Assembly (NCBI GenBank): GCA_019694595.1
Contig: JAIBBQ010000023.1
Coordinates: 1 to 52,508 of the forward strand
Length of the DNA stretch: 52,508 nucleotides
Source: Myxococcaceae bacterium
GTDB lineage: Bacteria > Myxococcota > Myxococcia > Myxococcales > Myxococcaceae
Reading direction: 5' to 3'
Within the stretch, counting starts at the first letter, position 1, and each line of letters opens with the position of its first letter. This document shows positions 26,054-38,221 of this stretch, one piece after another. The notes beneath the pieces were generated by a model. It did not search any database. It was not told the origin of the DNA and was given only the letters and a program-made list of their open reading frames with translations. Both the position numbers and the translations under genes were made by a program.

Positions 26054-26057
<4 letters not shown>
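25272..26057 (-). CDS. Membrane-anchored or exported protein, unknown function
   Basis: The 261-residue protein begins with a hydrophobic segment (LLAVLLLVAVHRPLVLRLGI) that could be an uncleaved anchor. The rest is soluble, with GWSPVIRTDMDDAWKHDG and a late segment ALEGFATAHVDREHHALLVI. I recognise no family. The GTG start at 26057 overlaps the stop of the sigma-54 activator gene (GTGA), so it is translated with the regulator and may be part of its output or sensing. Confidence 0.65.
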
Positions 26058-27625
<1,568 letters not shown>

Positions 27626-27634
27626 CGCCGGCAC

Positions 27635-28462
27635 CTAGAGGACGACCCGCTTGCCTTCGCGGGCGGCCTCCGTCGGGCGGTGGTGCGCGCGGGCGAGCTC
27701 CACCAGGTCTTCCACCTGGTCGTCGGTGCGCGCCGGGTCGTGGTGGAAGAGGAAGAGCCGCTCCGCGCCCGTCGCCTTCGCCACCAGGGCGGCGTCGGTG
27801 ACGGTGGAATGGCCCCAGCCCTTCTTGCAGGGGCCCTTGAGTCCTTCGTACTCCTCGCGGGTGTACTGGGCGTCGAGCACCAGGAGGTTCGCCCCTTCCA
27901 TCGCCTGGCCGACCGACGGCGCGAGCGCCTGCGCGTCGAGCTCCACGTCGGTCATGTAGACGATGGCCTGGCCGCCCGACTCGATGCGGTAGCCGAGGCA
28001 GCCGTTGGGGTGCGGCACCTCGAAGGGCGTGATGCGGAACGGGCCGCGCTCGAAGGCCTGGCCGGGCTGCGCGGAGCCGAAGGTGAGCTGCGAGCGCATC
28101 GCCGCCAGGGGCACCGGGAAGGTGGGCGGCGTCATCTGGCGGTCGAGCACATCGCGCAGGGCCTGCTCGCCGTTGGCGCCGGGGCCCAGCAATTCGAGCC
28201 TGGAGCTCGGCATCCACGCCGGGGCGAAGAAGGGAAAGCCCTGCACGTGGTCCCAGTGCAGGTGGCTGAAGAGCACGGTGGCCGTCACCGGCCCCCTGGG
28301 TGCCAGCGCGTCGCCCAGGCCGCGCAGGCCGGTGCCCGCGTCGAGGATCAGCCGGTGCTCGCCGTGCGTCACTTCCAGGCAGGAGGTGTTGCCGCCGATG
28401 CGCGCCACGTGGGCGCCGGAGGTGGCCACGCTGCCGCGAACGCCCCAGAACTTGAGCTCCAT
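27635..28462 (-). CDS. Metallo-beta-lactamase fold hydrolase
   Basis: The 275-residue enzyme has the MBL zinc motif HLHWDH near residue 67 and further ligands in FEVPHPNG near 150, VYMTDVELD near 170 and a final LFHHDP near 240. The start MELKFWGVRGSVA and GGNTSC are typical of the MBL subfamily that includes cyclic-nucleotide phosphodiesterase-like and PhnP-like proteins. Likely substrate is a phosphodiester or similar ester in the cytoplasm. ATG 28462 follows a GGGAG. It leads an operon with a sigma-54 activator; the GAF domain there might sense the substrate or product, which is inference. Confidence 0.86.
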   Translation of the reverse strand: MELKFWGVRGSVATSGAHVARIGGNTSCLEVTHGEHRLILDAGTGLRGLGDALAPRGPVTATVLFSHLHWDHVQGFPFFAPAWMPSSRLELLGPGANGEQALRDVLDRQMTPPTFPVPLAAMRSQLTFGSAQPGQAFERGPFRITPFEVPHPNGCLGYRIESGGQAIVYMTDVELDAQALAPSVGQAMEGANLLVLDAQYTREEYEGLKGPCKKGWGHSTVTDAALVAKATGAERLFLFHHDPARTDDQVEDLVELARAHHRPTEAAREGKRVVL

Positions 28463-28630: not shown

Positions 28631-29641
28631 TCAGTCCTTCCAGAAGACCTTCCACGGATGTGCGCGGAGGTCGCTGAGCAGCCCCTTGAGGTCGTCGTAG
28701 ACCTGCTTGTCCTTCATCGCCGCACCCAGGGTGCCGTCGCCGGCCTCCAGCTTGGCGAGGATGCGGTCCGCCCGGCCGGCGAGCGAGTCGAGCTTCTCGC
28801 CCGCGGCGGCGTACCTGGCGAGCGCCGCCTTGAGCTTCACGCCGTCGTCGGGGGTGAAGCTGCCGGTGACTGCGGCGATGCCGGTGAGCGCGGTCTGCGC
28901 CTGCTTCGACAGCGCCGGCACGTCGGTCTTGAGCTGGGCGGTGACGCTCGAGACGTCGTCGATGAGCCGGGCGCCCTTGCCGCCGGGCTCCAGCTGCGCG
29001 CGGGCGGTGGCGGACAGGGCGCGCAGGTCCTTCGCGGTGGCGGCGAGCTCCTGGGCGATCTGCCGCACCTCGTCCTTGTTCTCGATCAGCATTCCGTCGA
29101 CGGTGTGGGTGAGGCCGGAGACGCCGGTCACCAGGCGGCGCAGCGCGTCGGGGTCGTCTTCCAGCACCTTGCTCGAGGCTTCGAGGAAGCGCGCGAGCTG
29201 CTGCGACACCAGGTCGATGCGCGGCGAGTCGGTGCCGCGCAGCGCGGTGCCTTCGGGCCACGCCCCCTGCGCCTGCCCGGGGTTGAGCTCGAGGTACGGC
29301 TCGCCCAGGGGCCCCTGAGAATTCACCGTGACCGAGGCGTCGGCGCGCAGCGAGAGCAGCGCTTCCTTGGACAGCGACAGCGTCATCTTCACCGGCATCA
29401 CCGAGCCGCGGGCGTCGCGGCGCTCGGGGACCAGGGCGATCTCCGACACCCGGCCGACCGGCACGCCGCCCAGCTTCACCGGCGCCCCGCGCACCACGTT
29501 GCCGGTGTGGGCGAAGTCCACCGTCAGCGAGGCGCTCTTGCCGAGGCTGATCTCTCCCATGAGGAGCAGGAGCCCGACCGCGCCCACCACGGCGGCGAGG
29601 ACCAGCGCTCCGACCTTCAGCTCCAGCTTCGACTCGTCCAT
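28631..29641 (-). CDS. mlaD: MCE-domain protein (MlaD-like), substrate-binding part of a lipid ABC transporter
   Basis: MCE proteins form a hexameric ring on the periplasmic side of an MlaE/MlaF transporter and pass lipids between membranes. The 336-residue protein has one N-terminal membrane span (about 10-30) and a single MCE domain (about 38-120; DFAHTGNVVRGAPVKLGGVPVGRV). A long helical C-terminus (about 140-320) follows, likely a tunnel, ending in HPWKVFWKD. The length exceeds enterobacterial MlaD because of the helical extension. It is the last gene of the operon that starts with the STAS protein at 36232, 13 bases after the large lipoprotein gene. Confidence 0.9.
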   Translation of the reverse strand: MDESKLELKVGALVLAAVVGAVGLLLLMGEISLGKSASLTVDFAHTGNVVRGAPVKLGGVPVGRVSEIALVPERRDARGSVMPVKMTLSLSKEALLSLRADASVTVNSQGPLGEPYLELNPGQAQGAWPEGTALRGTDSPRIDLVSQQLARFLEASSKVLEDDPDALRRLVTGVSGLTHTVDGMLIENKDEVRQIAQELAATAKDLRALSATARAQLEPGGKGARLIDDVSSVTAQLKTDVPALSKQAQTALTGIAAVTGSFTPDDGVKLKAALARYAAAGEKLDSLAGRADRILAKLEAGDGTLGAAMKDKQVYDDLKGLLSDLRAHPWKVFWKD

Positions 29642-29653
29642 CGCGCGCTCGTT

Positions 29654-32134
29654 CTACTGGCAGGTGCCGCTGCCGATGAGGAAGGTGTAGCCGTTGACCA
29701 GCACCAGGAACACCTCGCCGTTGCCGGCGTACAGCTTGGCGCCCACGTACGCACCGTCGACCGCAGGAAGCCCTGGGAGCTTCACCCACCCGCTCGCGGC
29801 GAGCTGGAAGACGCCGTTGTCGGTGAGCGCCAGGGTGCGTCCGCACAGGCGCACGAAGTCGTGGGCGACCTCGTCCTTGGGCAGCAGCGCGCCCACCTCG
29901 GTGCGGTTGGGCAGGGTGTAGATCTGCCCGCGGTCGAAGGCGATGAAGGCGCGCCGCTGGGGGCCCACGCCGTCACCGAAGACCTCGACCGGGGTGCCCA
30001 CCAGGTTCTCCACCGACAGCGGCTCCGGGTACCAGGACAGGTCGTCCACGTTCATCGAGAACTGCACCAGCTCGGCGCCGGCGAGCGCGAAGCCGATGAG
30101 GTCGGTCTTGTAGGCCGATCCCATGCCATCGGCCGTGGCCACCACCGGAGCGGCGACCGCGAAGCTGGCGATGGGAATGCCGGGAACCGGAGACAGGCGA
30201 GGCGTGAGGAGCGCGCCCGCGATGGGGTCGACCGCCGCGCGCTGGGCCTTCACGTCGGCGGCGAAGAGGCGGTCGTTGGAGGCGACCACCAGCAGCCCCG
30301 CGTCGGCGACCTCGATGAGGTCGGCGGAGAACGGCGAGGAGATGGTCGCCGTCTGGCCGCCGAAGCCGGCGATGGGCCGCGGGCTGTCGGCCCCGTAGTC
30401 GACGTGGGTGAGGTCGAAGACGTGGAGGTTGGTGATCACCACCGTGGGGTCGCTCACCGCGAAGGCCACCACGTGCTCGTCGCCCTGCGTCTGTGAATTG
30501 CTGATGAGTCCGGCGCCCGGGTAGTACGAGAAGAAGCGGCTGCTCGTGCCGGCGATGATGCCTTGGTAGGGGGTGCCCGTCGGGCCGCGAACGATCAGCG
30601 CCGGCGCCTCGTCGAGCATGAGCGGGCGCATGGAGGCGAAGCCTTCGCCGCTGGCGTTCACGTACCCTTCGGGAACGTAGAGCTGTCCGCCGGCGGCGGC
30701 GGTGACGGTCGACTCCGGGTTGGCGAGGCTCGAGATCGGAGCCCCCGAGACGCCCTGGCTCACGCTCGGGTCGACGACCACCACGCGGCGGCACTGCTCG
30801 AAGCCCTGGCCGCTCCCGTTGAATTGCAGCTGGAAGGTGCGCTGCTCCCCGCTGGTCCCCTTGCAGGCGGCGAGCAGGCCCGGGCCGGTGTTCGACTCGT
30901 AGCTGGCGAGCGGCACCACGGTCGACGGGGCCGAGCCGTCGGGGCAGATGGAGCAGATCGAGTACTGCACGGTGTTGCACTCGTTGGTCGGGCCACCGGA
31001 CCCGCGGTCGAGCGACGAGACCATCATGGCGTAGGCCGGCTCGGCGCCGTCGCGGCTGAGCAGCACCACCGACGAGGTGGCGCCGGTGTCGATGGTCGGC
31101 AACAGCACCCGGGCGACCGTGTACGTGCCGCCGTCACCGACGGCGCCGGTCTGGCACCCGGCGTGGTGCGACACGTTCGACGGCAGCTGGGCGTAGCGCA
31201 GCGAGGCTTCCACCGGGCTGTTGGAGTTCATGTCCAGCCCCAGCCCGCCGTTGCGGTCGATGATCAGGTAGCGCTCGCCGCGCATGTTGGCGGGGCGCAC
31301 CCGGGCGATGTCCGCCACGTCGTCGGCCGAGATGCAGTGGGTGCCCGCGTCCCACAGCGGCGCCCCCAGGATGGTGCGTGCGCCCGAAGGGGTGAGCACG
31401 ACCACTTCCGGCCCCAGCGCCCTCAGGTGCGAGCCCTGGGGAGGCGTGGGCAGGTCGACCCCGCCGGCGTCGGGCAGCCCGGTCTCCAGCCGGAGCGTGC
31501 CGTTCTTGCGCAGGAGCACCGCGCCGATGCTCGACATCGCGAGCTCCGAGACGTCACCCCCGTCGACCGCGACCTGGAGCGCCGCCCGTTCCTCGTAGGT
31601 GAGCGCCAGCACGTCGTCGCCGAGCCAGGCGAAGGCGTGGCGGCGATCGTTGCCCACGCTCAGGGCGACCGCGCGGGGCGGGCCGAGCACGCCGGGCGAC
31701 AGGAGCCCCACGGAGAACGTGGCGGCGGGCCGCGTCTCCTTGGCGACGTCGTCCTGCACGCACCGCAGGGTCGAGAGGTTGCAGCGGAACTGGCGCGCCA
31801 CCGCGCAGTCCCCGTCGGAGTAGCAGACGTGCGACCTGGCGGCGTCGATCTGCTGGCAGGTGCCGTCGTAGCTGCCCTCGGAGGCGCCCGGAGGCGTCAC
31901 GCACTTCCACACCTCGACCGGGCGCGGCTTGTCCGACGGGCAGTCGCGCCGAGCACGGCAGGTCGCTCCCTCGGCCCGCCGCTCGGGGTCGAAGCAGACG
32001 CCGTCTTCGCCGCAGCTCCAGCCGCTCAGGCACTCGCTGTCGTCGGTGCAGGAATACGCGCGGCCTTCCTCGACGTTGACCGTGCTCTTGCAGGCGGCGA
32101 GCGCGAAGAGCGTCACCAGGGTTGCGCGCCTCAT
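29654..32134 (-). CDS. Large Cys-rich lipoprotein of the lipid-transport operon
   Basis: The 826-residue protein has a lipoprotein signal (LFALAACKS, Cys15) and a Cys-rich N-terminal region of about 110 residues with EGF- or disulfide-knot-like spacing (for example SCTDDSECLSGWSCGEDGVC). About 700 residues of beta-rich, low-similarity sequence follow, perhaps a propeller. This combination is common in myxobacterial surface lipoproteins of unknown role. Its ATG overlaps the TolB-like gene stop (ATGA), and the MCE gene follows 13 bases on. Being between transporter genes, it may be an outer-membrane partner of the transporter; sequence alone does not show this. Confidence 0.75.
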   Translation of the reverse strand: MRRATLVTLFALAACKSTVNVEEGRAYSCTDDSECLSGWSCGEDGVCFDPERRAEGATCRARRDCPSDKPRPVEVWKCVTPPGASEGSYDGTCQQIDAARSHVCYSDGDCAVARQFRCNLSTLRCVQDDVAKETRPAATFSVGLLSPGVLGPPRAVALSVGNDRRHAFAWLGDDVLALTYEERAALQVAVDGGDVSELAMSSIGAVLLRKNGTLRLETGLPDAGGVDLPTPPQGSHLRALGPEVVVLTPSGARTILGAPLWDAGTHCISADDVADIARVRPANMRGERYLIIDRNGGLGLDMNSNSPVEASLRYAQLPSNVSHHAGCQTGAVGDGGTYTVARVLLPTIDTGATSSVVLLSRDGAEPAYAMMVSSLDRGSGGPTNECNTVQYSICSICPDGSAPSTVVPLASYESNTGPGLLAACKGTSGEQRTFQLQFNGSGQGFEQCRRVVVVDPSVSQGVSGAPISSLANPESTVTAAAGGQLYVPEGYVNASGEGFASMRPLMLDEAPALIVRGPTGTPYQGIIAGTSSRFFSYYPGAGLISNSQTQGDEHVVAFAVSDPTVVITNLHVFDLTHVDYGADSPRPIAGFGGQTATISSPFSADLIEVADAGLLVVASNDRLFAADVKAQRAAVDPIAGALLTPRLSPVPGIPIASFAVAAPVVATADGMGSAYKTDLIGFALAGAELVQFSMNVDDLSWYPEPLSVENLVGTPVEVFGDGVGPQRRAFIAFDRGQIYTLPNRTEVGALLPKDEVAHDFVRLCGRTLALTDNGVFQLAASGWVKLPGLPAVDGAYVGAKLYAGNGEVFLVLVNGYTFLIGSGTCQ

Positions 32135-32919
32135 GGGAACACCCCCGCCAGGCCGACGCCGTTTCCGGTGGGCACCAGCGTCACCGCGTTGGCGAGCGGG
32201 TCCTTGGGCCAGAGGAAGATGCCGGCGCCCACCAGCACCGCGCCGGAGATGCCCGCCACCAGGCCGATGGTCTTCTCGGTGCCGATGGCGGTGGCCTGCG
32301 CGCGGTAGCTCTGCGCGTCGAGGAGCCCCTTCGAGCGCTCGAGCTCGCTGGCGAGCTGCCCGTCCTTCGAGAAGCCGTCGACGGTGAGGATGCCGGCGGC
32401 CACCACCGCGGCGCCGCCGGTGATGAGCAGCGTGAGCGGCAGCACCTTGCTCGGCGGCGCGGGCAGCGGCGTGGCGGTGGCCTCGGCGACCGCGTACGGC
32501 ACGATGCCGCGCAGCTGCTCGAGGTCCTTGGCGATCTTCACCGCGCGCCCCACCGGCTGCGCCTTCTGCGAATCGATGCCCTGCAAGGTGAGCTGGTAGC
32601 TGTCGCCCAGCTTGGCGAGCGTGCCCGAGAGCACGAAGCGCGAGCCCACCGCGTCGGCCACCTCGGCGAGGCAGGAGCTGCCTTCGCTGCAGCCGAGCAG
32701 CTGCTTCTGGCGCTCGACGCTGAGCAGGGTGCGCAGGTCCGCCGAGCTCACCACCTCGTAGTAGCCGCGGCGGCTCACCTCGGCGACCACCGAATCGGTG
32801 AGTGCCTGGGACACCGCGGAGTCGGCGCCGCCGGTGGTCTGCAGGTCGAGCACCGCGAGCCGCGGGCGTTCTCCCGCCGAGGCGGCAGCGAGCAGGGATG
32901 CGAGGAGCGGAGCCAGCAC
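32131..32919 (-). CDS. TolB-N/CsgG-like exported protein of the lipid-transport operon
   Basis: The 262-residue protein has a signal peptide (1-16) and a region at about 18-125 resembling the TolB amino-terminal domain (RPRLAVLDLQTTGGADSAVS, then SRRGYYEVVSSADLRTLL). Two hydrophobic segments follow, at about 170-185 and 225-245. Members of this group act in the periplasm on outer-membrane assembly or signalling. The start is GTG 32919, with GGGGGA ten bases before it. The stop overlaps the start of the lipoprotein gene; ATPase 1 ends 37 bases upstream. A role as an envelope accessory to the transporter is inferred from this position. Confidence 0.7.
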   Translation of the reverse strand: MLAPLLASLLAAASAGERPRLAVLDLQTTGGADSAVSQALTDSVVAEVSRRGYYEVVSSADLRTLLSVERQKQLLGCSEGSSCLAEVADAVGSRFVLSGTLAKLGDSYQLTLQGIDSQKAQPVGRAVKIAKDLEQLRGIVPYAVAEATATPLPAPPSKVLPLTLLITGGAAVVAAGILTVDGFSKDGQLASELERSKGLLDAQSYRAQATAIGTEKTIGLVAGISGAVLVGAGIFLWPKDPLANAVTLVPTGNGVGLAGVFP

Positions 32920-32955
32920 GGGTGGAGTCCCCCTGGGGAAGGAAGCGGGCGAAGG

Positions 32956-33633
32956 CTACTCGACGCCCAGAGGCGTGAGGCCCCGAAATGCCTTGGCCGG
33001 CCCGTGGTAGCCCTTCTTGCCCCGGTGCACCTCGAGCACGGTGTCGGCGAAGGTCTGGGCGGCGGCGAAGTCGTGGCTCACCACCAGCGCCCCCAGCCCC
33101 TGGGCGCGCAGCTCGGCGAGGGTGGCGTTCACCTGGGCCGCGGCTTCCCGGTCGAGGCCGGTGGTGGGCTCGTCGAGCAGCAGGAAGCGCGGCCTGAGCA
33201 TCAGCGCCCGCGCGATGGCGGCGCGCTTGCGCACTCCGGGGCCGACCTCGGCCGGGCGCTTGTCACCCAGCGCCGAGAGGCCGACCCGTGCGAGGTTCTT
33301 TTCCACCTCGGCGGCCGTGCCCCCGGGCAGGGCGACGTTCTGGGCGAGGGTGAGCCAGTCGAGCAGCGCCGGGCTCTGCACCAGGTATGGCACCTGTTCC
33401 CGGGTGCGCTGCAGCGCGCGCTCGGGCAGGGTGTCCACGCGGCCGCCGTCGAGCGCGATCTCTCCTGCGTCCAGCCGCAAGAGCCCCACCGCCGCGCGGC
33501 AGAGCACGCTCTTGCCGCTGCCCGAGCGGCCGACCACGAAGGTGAGCCCCTGGAGCGGCACCTCGGCGCTGAAGCCCTGCAGCACCGGCACCCCGTCGAA
33601 GCTCTTCTTCACCTCGTGGAAGGTGAGGCTCAC
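32956..33633 (-). CDS. ABC ATPase 1 of the Mla-type transporter: good Walker motifs, degenerate signature
   Basis: This is the cytoplasmic ATPase of the lipid transporter, 225 residues. Intact: Walker A GRSGSGKS (35-42), Q-loop Gln86, Walker B with catalytic Glu155 in LLLDEPTTGLD, and switch His187 in VVSHD. Degenerate: the position of the LSGGx signature reads VGPGV (130-134), so the conserved Ser is lost. Because the signature of one subunit completes the ATP site of the other, this protein would make a poor site with its partner's Walker motifs but a good one with its own. GTG 33633 overlaps the permease 1 stop (GTGA). Confidence 0.88.
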   Translation of the reverse strand: MSLTFHEVKKSFDGVPVLQGFSAEVPLQGLTFVVGRSGSGKSVLCRAAVGLLRLDAGEIALDGGRVDTLPERALQRTREQVPYLVQSPALLDWLTLAQNVALPGGTAAEVEKNLARVGLSALGDKRPAEVGPGVRKRAAIARALMLRPRFLLLDEPTTGLDREAAAQVNATLAELRAQGLGALVVSHDFAAAQTFADTVLEVHRGKKGYHGPAKAFRGLTPLGVE

Positions 33634-34370
33634 AGCCCGAGCCCCAGGAACACCAGCGTCACCAGGAAGTCGAGCACCAGCACCAGCAGACACGCGTCGA
33701 CCACGCCCGCGGTGACCGCCTCACCCACCGCCGCCGCGCCGCCGCGGGCTTCCAGCGCCCGGCCGCACGCCGCGAGGGGAATCGCCACGCCGCACACCAG
33801 CGACTTGGCGAGCGCGCTCAAGAGGTCGCCGCCGGTGAGGTAGCGCGGGTCGATGAAGGAGGAACCGTCGCCGCCCAGCGCGAACACGGTGCCCGCGGCC
33901 GCCAGCGCGGCGGCCACCGTGCCCACCACGCACAGGAGCGGAACCGCGAGCGTGGCGGCGATCAGGCGGGGAGCCACCAGCTCGCTCAAGGGGTCGATCG
34001 CCGACAGCTCGAGCGCCTCCAGCTGCTCCTGCACGCTCATCGCCGCCAGCTCGGCCGAGGCACCGGCTCCGGCGCGGGACGCGGTGAGCAGCGCGGCCAC
34101 CACCGGCCCCAGCTCGCGCACCAGGAGCTGGAAGTAGGCCGGCCCGGCGAAGGCCACGTTGCCGATGTACTTGCGGGCCTGCATCCACGCGATGGTGGTG
34201 AGCACCGCGCCGAAGAAGGCCATGCCGGCCGTCACCAGCCAGATCGACCGGGTGCCGAGCTCGTCGAGCTGCGCCAGCACCAGCTTGAGCGGAGGCCGCT
34301 GGTGGCGCAGCGCGCGCACGGTGCGGGTCAGCAGGAGCCAGTGCCTGCCGGCGACGTGGACCGGCGTCAC
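33630..34370 (-). CDS. mlaE: MlaE-type lipid ABC transporter permease 1
   Basis: The 246-residue integral membrane protein has five or six hydrophobic segments and the MlaE signature: RELGPVVAALLTASRAGAG near 95, followed by the cytoplasmic coupling loop SVQEQLEALELSAIDPL with the usual Glu-Gln pair. MlaE permeases form the dimer through which lipid passes to or from the MCE ring. The GTG start overlaps the stop of permease 2 (34367-34370), and its own stop overlaps ATPase 1. It is more canonical than permease 2. Confidence 0.9.
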   Translation of the reverse strand: MTPVHVAGRHWLLLTRTVRALRHQRPPLKLVLAQLDELGTRSIWLVTAGMAFFGAVLTTIAWMQARKYIGNVAFAGPAYFQLLVRELGPVVAALLTASRAGAGASAELAAMSVQEQLEALELSAIDPLSELVAPRLIAATLAVPLLCVVGTVAAALAAAGTVFALGGDGSSFIDPRYLTGGDLLSALAKSLVCGVAIPLAACGRALEARGGAAAVGEAVTAGVVDACLLVLVLDFLVTLVFLGLGL

Positions 34371-35140
34371 GTGAGCCACCTGGTGAGCGGGCCGGTGAGG
34401 GCGAAGTCGAGCGCGAAGATGGCGAAGGCGCCCGCCACCACGCTGGCCGCCGCGGCGCGGCCCACCCCGGTGGCGCCGCCGCGGGCGCGCAGCCCGATGG
34501 TGGTGGACACCACGGCGATCGCCAGCCCGAAGGCGGTCGACTTGCAGAGCCCGCCGAGCGCGTCGCGCCAGGTGAGCAGGTCGGCGAAGGAGTCGATGAG
34601 CACGCGGATCGGCAAGCGGAGCAGAAAGAAGGCCACGGTGGCTTCCACCACCACCGCCACCATGAAGGTGAGCCCGGCGAGCGCGGCGACGCTCAGCGTC
34701 GCGGCCACCACCCGGGGCGCCACCAGGAGCCGGAACGGGTCGAGCGAGATGCCGCGCAGGCCTTCGAGGGTGCCGCCGACCTGGAGCAGCGCGAGCTCGG
34801 CGGCGTTGCGCGCGCCCACCCGCGCGGCGAGCAAGAGCCCCAGGAGCAAAGGGCCGAACTCCCACAGCACCGCGTAGCCGCCCGCCCAGCCGGCGTACTG
34901 CCGGGCGCCGAAGCGCTCCGCGTACACGCCCGCTTGCAGCACCACGGTGGCGCCGGTGAGCACCGCCACCCCGAGCGACAAGGGGAGCGAGTCGAACCCG
35001 AAGTGCACCAGCGCGCGCAAGAGCTCGTGGCGGCGCAGGCGCGGCAGGTGGAGCAGCGTGCGCGCGAGGACCAGCGCGAGTGCGCCGGCTCCTCGGCTCA
35101 CGACGAGCACCAGCCGGCCGAGCAGCCGCACCGGGTTCAC
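34367..35140 (-). CDS. MlaE-type lipid ABC transporter permease 2, non-standard coupling loop
   Basis: The 257-residue membrane protein resembles Mla[21 protein letters not shown] near 95, then a loop [17 protein letters not shown]. The Glu-Gln pair normally found in this loop (EQ in permease 1) is replaced by Gly-Thr. It likely pairs with permease 1, giving a heterodimer as in mycobacterial YrbE pairs. GTG 35140 overlaps the stop of ATPase 2; the stop overlaps permease 1. These overlaps imply balanced translation of the four transporter subunits. Confidence 0.87.
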
Positions 35141-35778
35141 TCGAGCCTCCCGTCGGCCAGGCGGCGGTGCGGCATGGGCAAGGCAGGCGACGGGTCGGGC
35201 AGCGCGACGAGCAGGGTGCGCGCGCTGGCGACCTCGAGCAGGAGCGCCGCCATCTCCCGTTCGGTGTCGGGGTCGAGTCCGGCGAAGGGGTCGTCGGCGA
35301 GGAGCACCTCGGGCGCGGTCACCACCGCCCGCGCCAGCCCGACGCGCTTGCGCATGCCGCCCGAGAGCGACTCCGGCCGCTTGAGCGCCGCCGCGGTGAG
35401 CCCCACGCGCTCCAGCGCCTCGCGCGCCCGCGCGCGGGCCTCGTCGTCGGGCACGCCGCGCCGCTCCAGCGGCAGCCGCACGTTGTGCTCCACGGTGAGC
35501 GAGTCGAACAGCGCGTCGGACTGGAAGACGAAGCCCAGGTGCCGCTGGTGCGCGCGCCGGTCGGCGCTGGTGAGCGCCCAGGGGTCGAGCGCGTCCCAGC
35601 GCACGGTCCCGGTGCTGGGGCGAATGAGCCCGGCCAGCGCCTTGAGGAGCGTGGTCTTGCCGCCGCCCGCCGGCCCGTGGATCTGGAGGTGGTCGCCGCG
35701 CTCGAGCTTCAGGCTCACGCCGTCGAGCGCCGGGGTCCGGCCGCGCACCACGGTGAGGGCCTGGGTCGAGAGCTGCAC
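35137..35778 (-). CDS. ABC ATPase 2 of the Mla-type transporter: good signature, degenerate catalytic residues
   Basis: This 213-residue ATPase is the mirror image of ATPase 1. Intact: Walker A GPAGGGKT (35-42), Q-loop Gln86 and signature LSGGM (138-142, within LSGGMRKR). Altered: the catalytic Glu after Walker B is Asp163 ([11 protein letters not shown]), and the switch His position is Leu193 in VALPD. Thus its own Walker site is probably non-hydrolytic, while its signature can complete the ATPase 1 site. This is the pattern of asymmetric heterodimeric ABC proteins. GTG 35778 starts it, 43 bases after the STAS gene; its stop overlaps permease 2. Confidence 0.88.
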
Positions 35779-35821
35779 GGGCGGGCGAGGACCTTAGCGA
35801 AAGGCCTTCGCCAGCGGGCGC

Positions 35822-36232
35822 TCAGGCGCCGGTGCCGCCGTCGTTCCCGCCCGGGCCCGGGTCGACGCGCACCACGGCAGGGGCCAGCTCGCGCAGCGTC
35901 TCGAGCCGCGCGCTCTGCCAGCGGTGGGCGGCGTTGCTCAGGAAGTGCACCTCGTACGGAGGCTTCGCGCTGCGCTCCCGCACGCTGGTCAGCCAGTTCG
36001 CGAGCAGCTTGAAGCACGGCGCCGACAGCAGGAGCAGCGCGCGCAGGTCGACCATCACGACGGCGCGGCTGGTCTCCAGGAGCCGGCGGTCGAGCAGCTC
36101 GAGGTACGGCGCGAGCGGCCCCGCGGCCTGCGGGTCGGCCAGGCCCGTGAGCCGCAGCGTCCACAGGCCGTCGGGCGCAGCGGTGACGGTGGCACTGAAG
36201 CCAGGGAGATGAACACCGGTTCCGAGTGGCAT
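35822..36232 (-). CDS. STAS-like small protein, possible MlaB analogue
   Basis: The 136-residue protein has the strand-helix pattern of STAS domains (WTLRLTGLADPQAAGPL, then SRAVVMVDLRALLLLSAPCFKLLANWL). In MlaFEDB transporters the STAS protein MlaB binds and stabilises the ATPase. Position supports a similar part here: it is the first gene before ATPase 2, 43 bases apart, same strand. Similarity is weak and the usual conserved Asp-Ser region is not exact, so an anti-sigma antagonist-type function is also possible. ATG 36232 has no clear ribosome site. Confidence 0.6.
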   Translation of the reverse strand: MPLGTGVHLPGFSATVTAAPDGLWTLRLTGLADPQAAGPLAPYLELLDRRLLETSRAVVMVDLRALLLLSAPCFKLLANWLTSVRERSAKPPYEVHFLSNAAHRWQSARLETLRELAPAVVRVDPGPGGNDGGTGA

Positions 36233-36416: not shown

Positions 36417-38123
36417 TCAGCGCCCCTTGCCGAGCCAGCGGGCGAGCGAGACTTTTCCCAGGCGGGGCGCGACCACGTACCAGGCGAGCGCGGCGCCGAA
36501 GAGGAAGCCGGCGGCCACCACGCCGAGGACGCCCAGGGCGGGCACGCCGCCGATGACCCAGTCGCTGCGCGCGAAGCTGATGAAGGCGCCCACGATGAAG
36601 CCGCACGCACACAGGCCCACGAAGGCCACCATCGCCAGCGAGCGCAGGTTCTGGTTGAGCTCCTTCATCTGCTCGGAGTGCACCGAGATGGTGAGGCGCC
36701 CCGACTCGAGGTCGAGCATCAGCTGCGAGAACTGGGTGGGCAGCTCGTTGGCGGCGTTCGACAGCCGCAGCGCCGCCTTCCACAGGCCGCCTTCGAGCTG
36801 GGTGGGCGCGAAGCGGTCCTGGAGGAGCTTCTTGGCGTGGGGTAGCGCGACCTCGCCGATGTTGAGCCCGGGGAAGAGCGAGCGGAGCACGCCTTCGGTG
36901 GCGACGGAGGCCCGCGAGAGGATCGCGTATTCCTTGGGAATGCGGATGCGGTACTTCACCGCGAGGTCGAGCAGGTCGCGCAAGAGCTGCTTGGCGTTCA
37001 CCTCGCCCAGCGTCGTGGGCAGGTACTGGCGGAGGATCTGATCGACGTCGGCCTTGAAGGCCACCAGGTTGGCGCGGCGGTCGGGCTCGCCCAGGCGGTA
37101 GAGCTGGCGGGCGACCGACTCCGAGTCCTTGATCGCCACCGCGAGGACCAGCTGCACCAGCTGCTCCTGCATGCCGCGGGTGAGCCGGCCCACCACGCCG
37201 AAGTCGATCAGCGCCAGCACCGGCGCGTCGGGCGGGCTGCCGTCGAGCACCAGCAGGTTCCCGGGGTGGGGGTCGCCGTGGAAGAGGCCGTCTTCGAACA
37301 GCTGCTGGAAGGCGGTGCCCACGATGGCCTTGGCGAGGTGCTCCTTGCCTGCCTCGGTGAGCTTGGCGCTCGAGAGCTTGACGCCCGGCAGGTACTCCAT
37401 GGTCAGCACCGTGCGGCTGGTGAGCGCGTCGATGACCGTGGGCACGCGCACCGCGGGGCGCTCGCGGTGGTTGCGGTGGAAAGCGTGAATGTTCTGCGCC
37501 TCGTTGAGGAAATCGAGCTCGTCGCGGATGGCGTGGTCGAACTCCTCGATGATGCCGGTGGGGCTGTAGAGGCCCGCCTCGTCGACCACCGCCTCGAGCG
37601 CGCTGGCGAGCGAATGGAGCACCGAGAGGTCGGCGCGGATCTGCTCTGCGATGCCGGGCCGCTGCACCTTCACCACCACCTCTTCGCCCTGCACGGTGGT
37701 GGCCCGGTGGACCTGGGCGATGGACGCGGCGGCGATCGGCGCGGAGTCGAAGCGCGCGTAGAGCGTCTCCAGGCTCTTGCCGAAGGCGCCTTCGATCTGC
37801 GCCCGCACCTGTTCCATGGGGAAGGGGGGCACGTGGTCCTGCAGCGCGCCGAGCTCTTCCACCACCTCCGCCGGCAGGAGGTCGGCGCGGGTGGACAGCA
37901 CCTGGCCCAGCTTGACGAAGGTGGGCCCGAGCTCGGCGAGCAACGCGCGGAAGCGCTTGGCCCCCGAGAGCGCCCGGGCCTCGGGGGTGGGCTCGACCGT
38001 CTCCTTCTTGCCCAGCTTGCTCCAGAAACCGCCGCGGTCGAGGAGGTCGGCGTAACCGTAGCGCGCGGCGATGACCGCGATCTGTCGCACGCGGTTCAGG
38101 TCCTGGAACGCTTCGCGGATCAT
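36417..38123 (-). CDS. UbiB/AarF-family (ABC1) atypical protein kinase
   Basis: The 568-residue protein matches the ABC1/UbiB group, ATP-binding proteins needed for ubiquinone and other isoprenoid-lipid metabolism. Features seen: the family KxGQ motif in FVKLGQVLSTRADLLP near 70, the A-rich loop AAASIAQVHRA near 132, VVVKVQRPG near 150, HGDPHPGN near 290 and IDFGVVG near 315. The last 60 residues hold two membrane spans. I chose ATG 38123 (MIREAFQDL), where family similarity begins, over an upstream ATG. It is separated from the STAS gene by 184 bases and divergent from the small lipoprotein gene. Confidence 0.9.
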   Translation of the reverse strand: MIREAFQDLNRVRQIAVIAARYGYADLLDRGGFWSKLGKKETVEPTPEARALSGAKRFRALLAELGPTFVKLGQVLSTRADLLPAEVVEELGALQDHVPPFPMEQVRAQIEGAFGKSLETLYARFDSAPIAAASIAQVHRATTVQGEEVVVKVQRPGIAEQIRADLSVLHSLASALEAVVDEAGLYSPTGIIEEFDHAIRDELDFLNEAQNIHAFHRNHRERPAVRVPTVIDALTSRTVLTMEYLPGVKLSSAKLTEAGKEHLAKAIVGTAFQQLFEDGLFHGDPHPGNLLVLDGSPPDAPVLALIDFGVVGRLTRGMQEQLVQLVLAVAIKDSESVARQLYRLGEPDRRANLVAFKADVDQILRQYLPTTLGEVNAKQLLRDLLDLAVKYRIRIPKEYAILSRASVATEGVLRSLFPGLNIGEVALPHAKKLLQDRFAPTQLEGGLWKAALRLSNAANELPTQFSQLMLDLESGRLTISVHSEQMKELNQNLRSLAMVAFVGLCACGFIVGAFISFARSDWVIGGVPALGVLGVVAAGFLFGAALAWYVVAPRLGKVSLARWLGKGR

Positions 38124-38221
38124 CGGTGCGCGTGAAGGTGTCACGCGCGCCCGGCTGCGGCAACCCGCGCCGTTCATGCGGGGCTCGACAAGGCGCGAGG
38201 GCCGCGTCCAGGCTCCAGGCC

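Follow-up and report, generated by a model that had tools for sequence, protein, structure and literature searches.

A gene cluster on contig JAIBBQ010000023.1 of a Myxococcaceae bacterium is predicted to encode a type VIII (MCE/MlaFEDB-like) ABC transporter whose permeases and ATPases would both be heterodimers, with one ATP site hydrolytic and the other degenerate. From the motifs, phylogeny, and gene neighborhoods of its homologues, we put the probability of this reading at about 0.86. The window, meaning the whole stretch of DNA that was analyzed, is 52,508 nucleotides long. The cluster contains MlaE-family permeases, an MCE-domain protein in the operon, and an MlaF-type ATPase with the signature LSGGM (Met instead of Gln), and SGGM is kept in the homologues of this ATPase (ATPase 2). 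The system departs from a strict MlaFEDB complex in that neither ATPase has the complete motif set for a homodimer with two complete sites and in that an MlaB (STAS) subunit is not conserved in the operon. It departs from the TAP/CFTR/ABCB-ABCC exporters in that its permeases belong to the MlaE family and not to an exporter-type transmembrane domain.

The genes are encoded on the minus strand in the order UbiB-like kinase, STAS-like protein, ATPase 2, permease A, permease B, ATPase 1, two genes without a family, and MCE protein (Table 1). Neighboring core genes overlap by a few bases at the ATPase 2/permease A, permease A/permease B, and permease B/ATPase 1 joints, which fits a translationally coupled operon. 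The two permeases are 35% identical to each other (BLASTP), and an NCBIfam search of both ATPases returned just generic ABC matches under the cutoff. The only MCE gene in the operon encodes an N-terminal transmembrane helix, a single MCE domain, and a helical C terminus of ~180 residues. In the structural model, of low confidence overall, the MCE domain has a pLDDT of ~70 to 88 and the helical tail is poorly modeled; such a tail might possibly span the periplasm, and the confidence of the model is too low to support a periplasm-spanning tube. On the 3' side of the MCE gene (26054-28462, minus strand), a metallo-beta-lactamase-fold hydrolase and a GAF-sigma54-Fis activator are encoded, and their place is conserved in Myxococcaceae.

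Table 1. Features of the two-ATPase locus and its neighbors in the window
Feature	Coordinates	Strand	Length and evidence
ABC1/UbiB-like atypical kinase	36417..38177	-	PF03109 1.7e-73; upstream neighbor of ATPase 2
STAS-like small protein, possible MlaB analogue, membership uncertain	35822..36232	-	NF047705 2.5e-5
ATPase 2 (NBD)	35137..35778	-	213 aa; Pfam ABC_tran 1.3e-32; motifs; 85 distinct homologues
Permease A, MlaE family	34367..35140	-	PF02405 6.1e-47; own clade, 100/96 support
Permease B, MlaE family	33630..34370	-	PF02405 8.7e-46; own clade, 100/100 support
ATPase 1 (NBD)	32956..33633	-	225 aa; Pfam ABC_tran 5.8e-24; motifs; 77 distinct homologues
Two genes between ATPase 1 and MCE	29654..32134, 32131..32919	-	without family match
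MCE (MlaD-family) protein	28631..29641	-	PF02470 4.1e-14, residues 38-122

In translation, ATPase 1 has an intact Walker A motif (GRSGSGKS, G35 to S42, with lysine K41), Q86, Walker B D154-E155, and switch residues S186-H187-D188. Its signature is VGPGV (V130-G131-P132-G133-V134, in the context E-VGPGV-RKR), and the LSGGM of MlaF is absent. ATPase 2 has the Walker A motif GPAGGGKT with K41, the Q-loop residue Q86, and an intact LSGGM signature (L138-S139-G140-G141-M142), and its Walker B reads D162-D163, with Asp163 where the catalytic Glu is expected. These coordinates, frames, and motifs agree with the original prediction, which had described ATPase 1 as good in Walker A, Glu155, and His187 with a VGPGV signature, and ATPase 2 as carrying LSGGM with Asp163 in place of Glu. 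The prediction was one residue off at the switch of ATPase 2, where it had named Leu193; the region reads L-P-D, and alignment places Pro194 in the switch-His column. Misalignment or wrong start codons were rejected as a source of the defects, since the motifs line up over many homologues in several alignments.

Conservation of the paired defects in relatives, which had been put forward as a check, was borne out by 77 distinct ATPase 1 and 85 distinct ATPase 2 sequences, which show the same kind of split. Every ATPase 1 retains the Lys, the Gln, the Walker B Asp-Glu, and the switch His (77/77 each), and none has S-G-G in its signature, which is LGPG in 41 and VGPG in 22, the remainder being LG[AQHK]G, CGPG, [VLA]SAG, MSSG, and VSPA. 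ATPase 2 keeps the Lys and S-G-G in 85/85 sequences; its Walker B is Asp-Asp in 74, Asp-Glu in 10, and Asp-Gly in 1, and its switch position is occupied by Pro (56), Ala (9), Thr (7), Asn (6), His (4), Ser (2), or Gly (1). The Glu, the His, or both are lost in 84 of the 85. A search for relatives in which both ATPases are complete, which would have counted against the original prediction, yielded none: the signature is altered in every ATPase 1, and the sole ATPase 2 that keeps both Glu and His (L186, genome G146) has a partner ATPase 1 that still reads VGPG. All motifs are complete in 47/47 single-ATPase controls of the MlaF type from outside the two-ATPase system, including the ATPases that this genome encodes for two additional MlaE systems (L149/L205 and L150). 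One ATPase 2 with His in the switch column, that of G027 (L158/L039), reads AAHD where the sister genome has AAPD, and its Walker B residue is Asp. The ATPase 2 proteins of L196 (G168) and L198 (G157) have lost the Walker B Glu (to Gly or Asp) and the Q-loop Gln and have kept the His; by these motifs, they represent a different route to a degenerate site. In G191 an ATPase 2 was not found, and in G157 an ATPase 1 was not found adjoining the permeases.

In ABC ATPases, two chains associate in a head-to-tail fashion, and the Walker motifs of one together with the signature of its partner enclose each ATP. The residues that are kept (Lys, Gln, Glu, and His of ATPase 1 and LSGGM of ATPase 2) would meet in one composite site and those that are lost in the other, which argues for a heterodimer. 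As had been proposed for this gene cluster, such a heterodimer would have one complete and one double-degenerate site, and complementary motif sets of the same kind are found in the homologues. Four different core chains would make up the predicted machine. Permeases A and B would sit in the inner membrane above ATPases 1 and 2, and the MCE protein would form a ring in the periplasm. The complete site would be made of Walker A, Q-loop, Walker B Glu, and switch His of ATPase 1, would be closed by LSGGM of ATPase 2, and would hydrolyze ATP. At the degenerate site, Walker A, Asp163, and Pro194 of ATPase 2 would face the VGPGV of ATPase 1. Because none of the 85 ATPase 2 proteins has lost the Walker A lysine, this site probably binds ATP, with hydrolysis that may be slow or nil, and it might act as a clamp or pivot. 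About one ATP would then be hydrolyzed per cycle, at a single site, as in TAP-like transporters, and membership in the MlaE and MCE families suggests that the cargo is lipid.

The same conserved lysine, together with the Glu retained in 10/85 ATPase 2 proteins, would also suit a single complex whose degenerate site turns over usefully, by Asp in place of Glu or by the retained Glu, so that both ATPs are used; Glu-to-Asp sites do still hydrolyze slowly (PMC7756269). We regard this as improbable, because the switch His is missing in 81/85 ATPase 2 proteins, the partner signatures are altered in 77/77, and degenerate sites are far slower than the transport cycle (PMC7756269).

Because ATPase 1 is recognized partly by its signature, the ATPase tree was rebuilt without the signature, Walker B, and switch columns. 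On this motif-free tree, all ATPase 1 proteins fall into a single clade (100/98) that contains no intact sequence, and this clade groups with MlaF-type ATPases encoded beside MlaE genes. When the changes are mapped, signature loss occurs once, switch-His loss twice, and change of the Glu within ATPase 2 at least four times. The defects are thus not fixed as a set: the ATPase 1 signature change is universal, and Glu loss in ATPase 2 takes several changes on the tree. Part of the evolutionary order is readable, from the universal signature change through His loss to the changes of Glu, which bears on the origin of degenerate sites. ATPase 2 is 35% identical to ATPase 1 and, as judged from the tree, is a deep lineage of its own and not a recent copy of ATPase 1. 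It falls on the side of the LolD outgroup, and an AU p of 0.35 neither rejects nor proves that the ATPase 2 proteins form one clade. Permease A and permease B form separate clades, which is compatible with a membrane part that is heterodimeric, like YrbE1A/YrbE1B (PMC9882608).

The orthologue set was assembled from genome searches, fetched neighboring regions, and a scan of named genomes. The conserved unit, ATPase2-permA-permB-ATPase1-MCE, recurs throughout Myxococcaceae and beyond, with the gene order kept in Myxococcus xanthus AM003 (L093), Corallococcus, Pyxidicoccus, and Archangium, and the MCE gene lies directly 3' of ATPase 1 in most relatives. Order-wide scores of a permease A profile are two-peaked, mostly ≥240 bits for the two-ATPase system versus ~178 bits or less for ordinary MlaE; an exception is the broken gene of G037, which scores 171 bits in pieces. 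Across the phylum, a permease A match at an E value of ≤1e-53 was found in 95/195 genomes (weakest, 187 bits), a count that is approximate because one of the weak matches, in G164 (L197), had permease B as its best-scoring assignment and no ATPase was found next to it. A lineage-specific oddity was rejected on this presence across the phylum.

The six-gene frame of the original prediction is less solid than the five-gene conserved unit, since homologues of the STAS-like gene and of genes 32131-32919 and 29654-32134 are absent from the loci of relatives. The latter two genes were accordingly rejected as transporter subunits. The STAS-like open reading frame was found only in this genome, with no homologue near the operons of relatives (diverged copies elsewhere in those genomes are possible). 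Its single-sequence model has a pLDDT of 68, and its top Foldseek matches are STAS proteins (RsfB, a SpoIIAA complex, SiaC, and RsbS), none at an E value of ≤0.001; an MlaB-like STAS subunit is not supported as a core part, given the lack of nearby homologues and a fold that is no more than suggestive. Insertions of 1 to 6 kb occur at differing operon joints in different genomes (permA/permB, permB/ATPase 1, ATPase 1/MCE, and ATPase 2/permA), examples being 29654-32919 in the window, L037/L039, L103, L033/L073, L041/L104, and L031.

Complementarity is also seen where the genes are unlinked. In genus g35 (G044, G049, and G053), the permease pair and each of the two ATPases have a place of their own (L055/L057/L060, L199/L200/L114, and L208-L210), and the motifs are complementary. 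In families f12, f26, f28, f29, and f31, ATPase 2 has no neighboring permease and its His is replaced by Asn or Thr (L212, L213, L214, L219, L222, and L223), and ATPase 1 adjoins the permeases with the signature LG[APKHQ]G. Over all unlinked cases, ATPase 1 has LG[APKHQ]G or S[AS]G with DEP and SHD, and ATPase 2 has [LI]SGGM with the His changed to Asn, Thr, or Ala; for the families furthest away, the assignment of ATPase 2 used score, motif, and lack of a neighboring MlaE and not linkage, which is partly circular. The idea that distant genomes miss one ATPase was rejected when orphan ATPase 2 genes with lost switch residues turned up. The two ATPases are also absent together: 12 same-family genomes without permease A were also without ATPase 1 orthologues (best E value of ~1e-33 or weaker versus 1e-64 or better where the system is intact) and ATPase 2 orthologues (best score of 206 bits or less versus 269 to 306 in three positive controls).

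Composite-site logic, synteny, and joint absence together lead us to predict that the two ATPases form a heterodimer. The gene order, which places ATPase 2 by permease A and permease B by ATPase 1, would also suit two complexes, one of an ATPase 2 homodimer with permease A and the other of an ATPase 1 homodimer with permease B, and canonical MlaF and MceG are homodimers. We consider such an arrangement even less probable than useful turnover at both sites, because pairing either chain with itself would give two damaged sites (closed by VGPGV, or without Glu and His), just one MCE gene is present, and two complexes would leave the strict complementary conservation, its persistence in unlinked genes, and the joint absence unexplained. 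Linkage, complementarity, and joint absence point instead to both ATPases belonging to one complex, as originally supposed.

Both genes are under purifying selection, with dN/dS of ~0.02 to 0.15 for ATPase 1 and 0.03 to 0.35 for ATPase 2. With the same split throughout the 77 and 85 sequences, this led us to reject chance or annotation error and, with the conserved complementary motifs, pseudogene decay. Neutral decay of redundant genes, to which the somewhat faster evolution of ATPase 2 than of ATPase 1 in most close pairs might point, is very improbable given this selection, reading frames that are open in relatives, absolutely conserved complementary motifs, and four-gene synteny over many genera.

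The single-ATPase build that the original prediction had taken as usual for MlaF/MCE-type transporters agrees with what is described for the characterized relatives. Escherichia coli MlaF is a homodimer with LSGGM at residues 145 to 149 in which K47 and E170 are needed (PMC7367683), and MceG of mycobacterial Mce1 is likewise a homodimer (PMC9882608). MlaFEDB resembles the present system in its MlaE-family permeases, LSGGM ATPase, and MCE (MlaD) protein, and a STAS-like gene is nearby in this genome; however, its permease and its ATPase are each of a single type and homodimeric, whereas here there are two of each with complementary lesions, and neither ATPase of this system has a long C-terminal extension. 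Mce1 shares with our proposal the heterodimeric MlaE-family permeases (YrbE1A/YrbE1B) but has a heterohexameric MCE ring, in contrast to the single MCE gene here.

One consensus and one degenerate site, as proposed here, are found in TAP1/TAP2, CFTR, the MRPs, TmrAB, BmrCD, and PatAB (PMC7756269), in keeping with the earlier remark that such asymmetry is known from exporters. All human degenerate sites carry an altered signature in one NBD, Glu-to-Asp ranks second, and loss of the H-loop is a frequent companion of it; in TAP1/TAP2-type transporters, one NBD is without the Glu and often the H-loop His and the other is without the signature (PMC7756269), a pattern matched here. These transporters have the exporter fold, and since the MlaE/MCE family is another transmembrane family, the asymmetry here probably arose independently. 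The sterol transporter ABCG5/ABCG8 is also a heterodimer with a degenerate site, but it is of a different family, and its signature change goes with a Walker A change (PMC7756269) and not with Walker B and H-loop changes as here. An asymmetric MlaF/MCE motor, put forward as undescribed, was not reported in the open-access literature searched, to which the claim of novelty is limited.

If this is correct, degenerate-site asymmetry would have arisen independently in a family whose motor has been described as a homodimer. It would allow a comparison that is impossible within exporters, namely, of the reason for having one switched-off ATP site and of whether such a site suits lipid handling. The presence of the system in the genetically tractable Myxococcus xanthus makes the single-site predictions testable. 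That ATPase 2 is often unlinked is a warning for annotation pipelines in which MlaF is located solely from synteny.

A functional link of the UbiB-like kinase with the ATPase 2 system is likely from gene neighborhood, and we treat the kinase as a candidate partner rather than a proven subunit. Homologues of the ABC1/UbiB-like kinase were found in 37 loci from several Myxococcota families (some of these loci being the same genome fetched twice), and in three g35 genomes (L208-L210) the kinase gene stays by ATPase 2 although the latter is unlinked from the permeases. No match to it was found in the ordinary MlaE loci searched, and it is absent within the ~6 kb read upstream in Myxococcus/Corallococcus loci (L083-L095). 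In yeast, the UbiB-family member Cqd1 has an effect on phospholipid homeostasis (PMC10214851). We suggest, very tentatively and as a rather doubtful extension, that the degenerate half of the motor could be a regulatory input through which the UbiB-like kinase and ATPase 2 control or load an asymmetric lipid transporter. If so, UbiB-like proteins would become parts of a bacterial intermembrane lipid transport machine, a lead on these poorly understood kinases.

Other loci in the survey include further ones with a kinase gene upstream of ATPase 2 (L052, L054, L063, L064, L190, and L198). At L217 (G157:C168) there is a second MlaE system with two permeases, whose one ATPase is complete (LSGGQ) and whose arrangement resembles that of mycobacterial YrbE/MceG. 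A record titled Comamonas sp. KCTC 72670 is probably misnamed, because its copy of the operon (L100) is Myxococcus-like.
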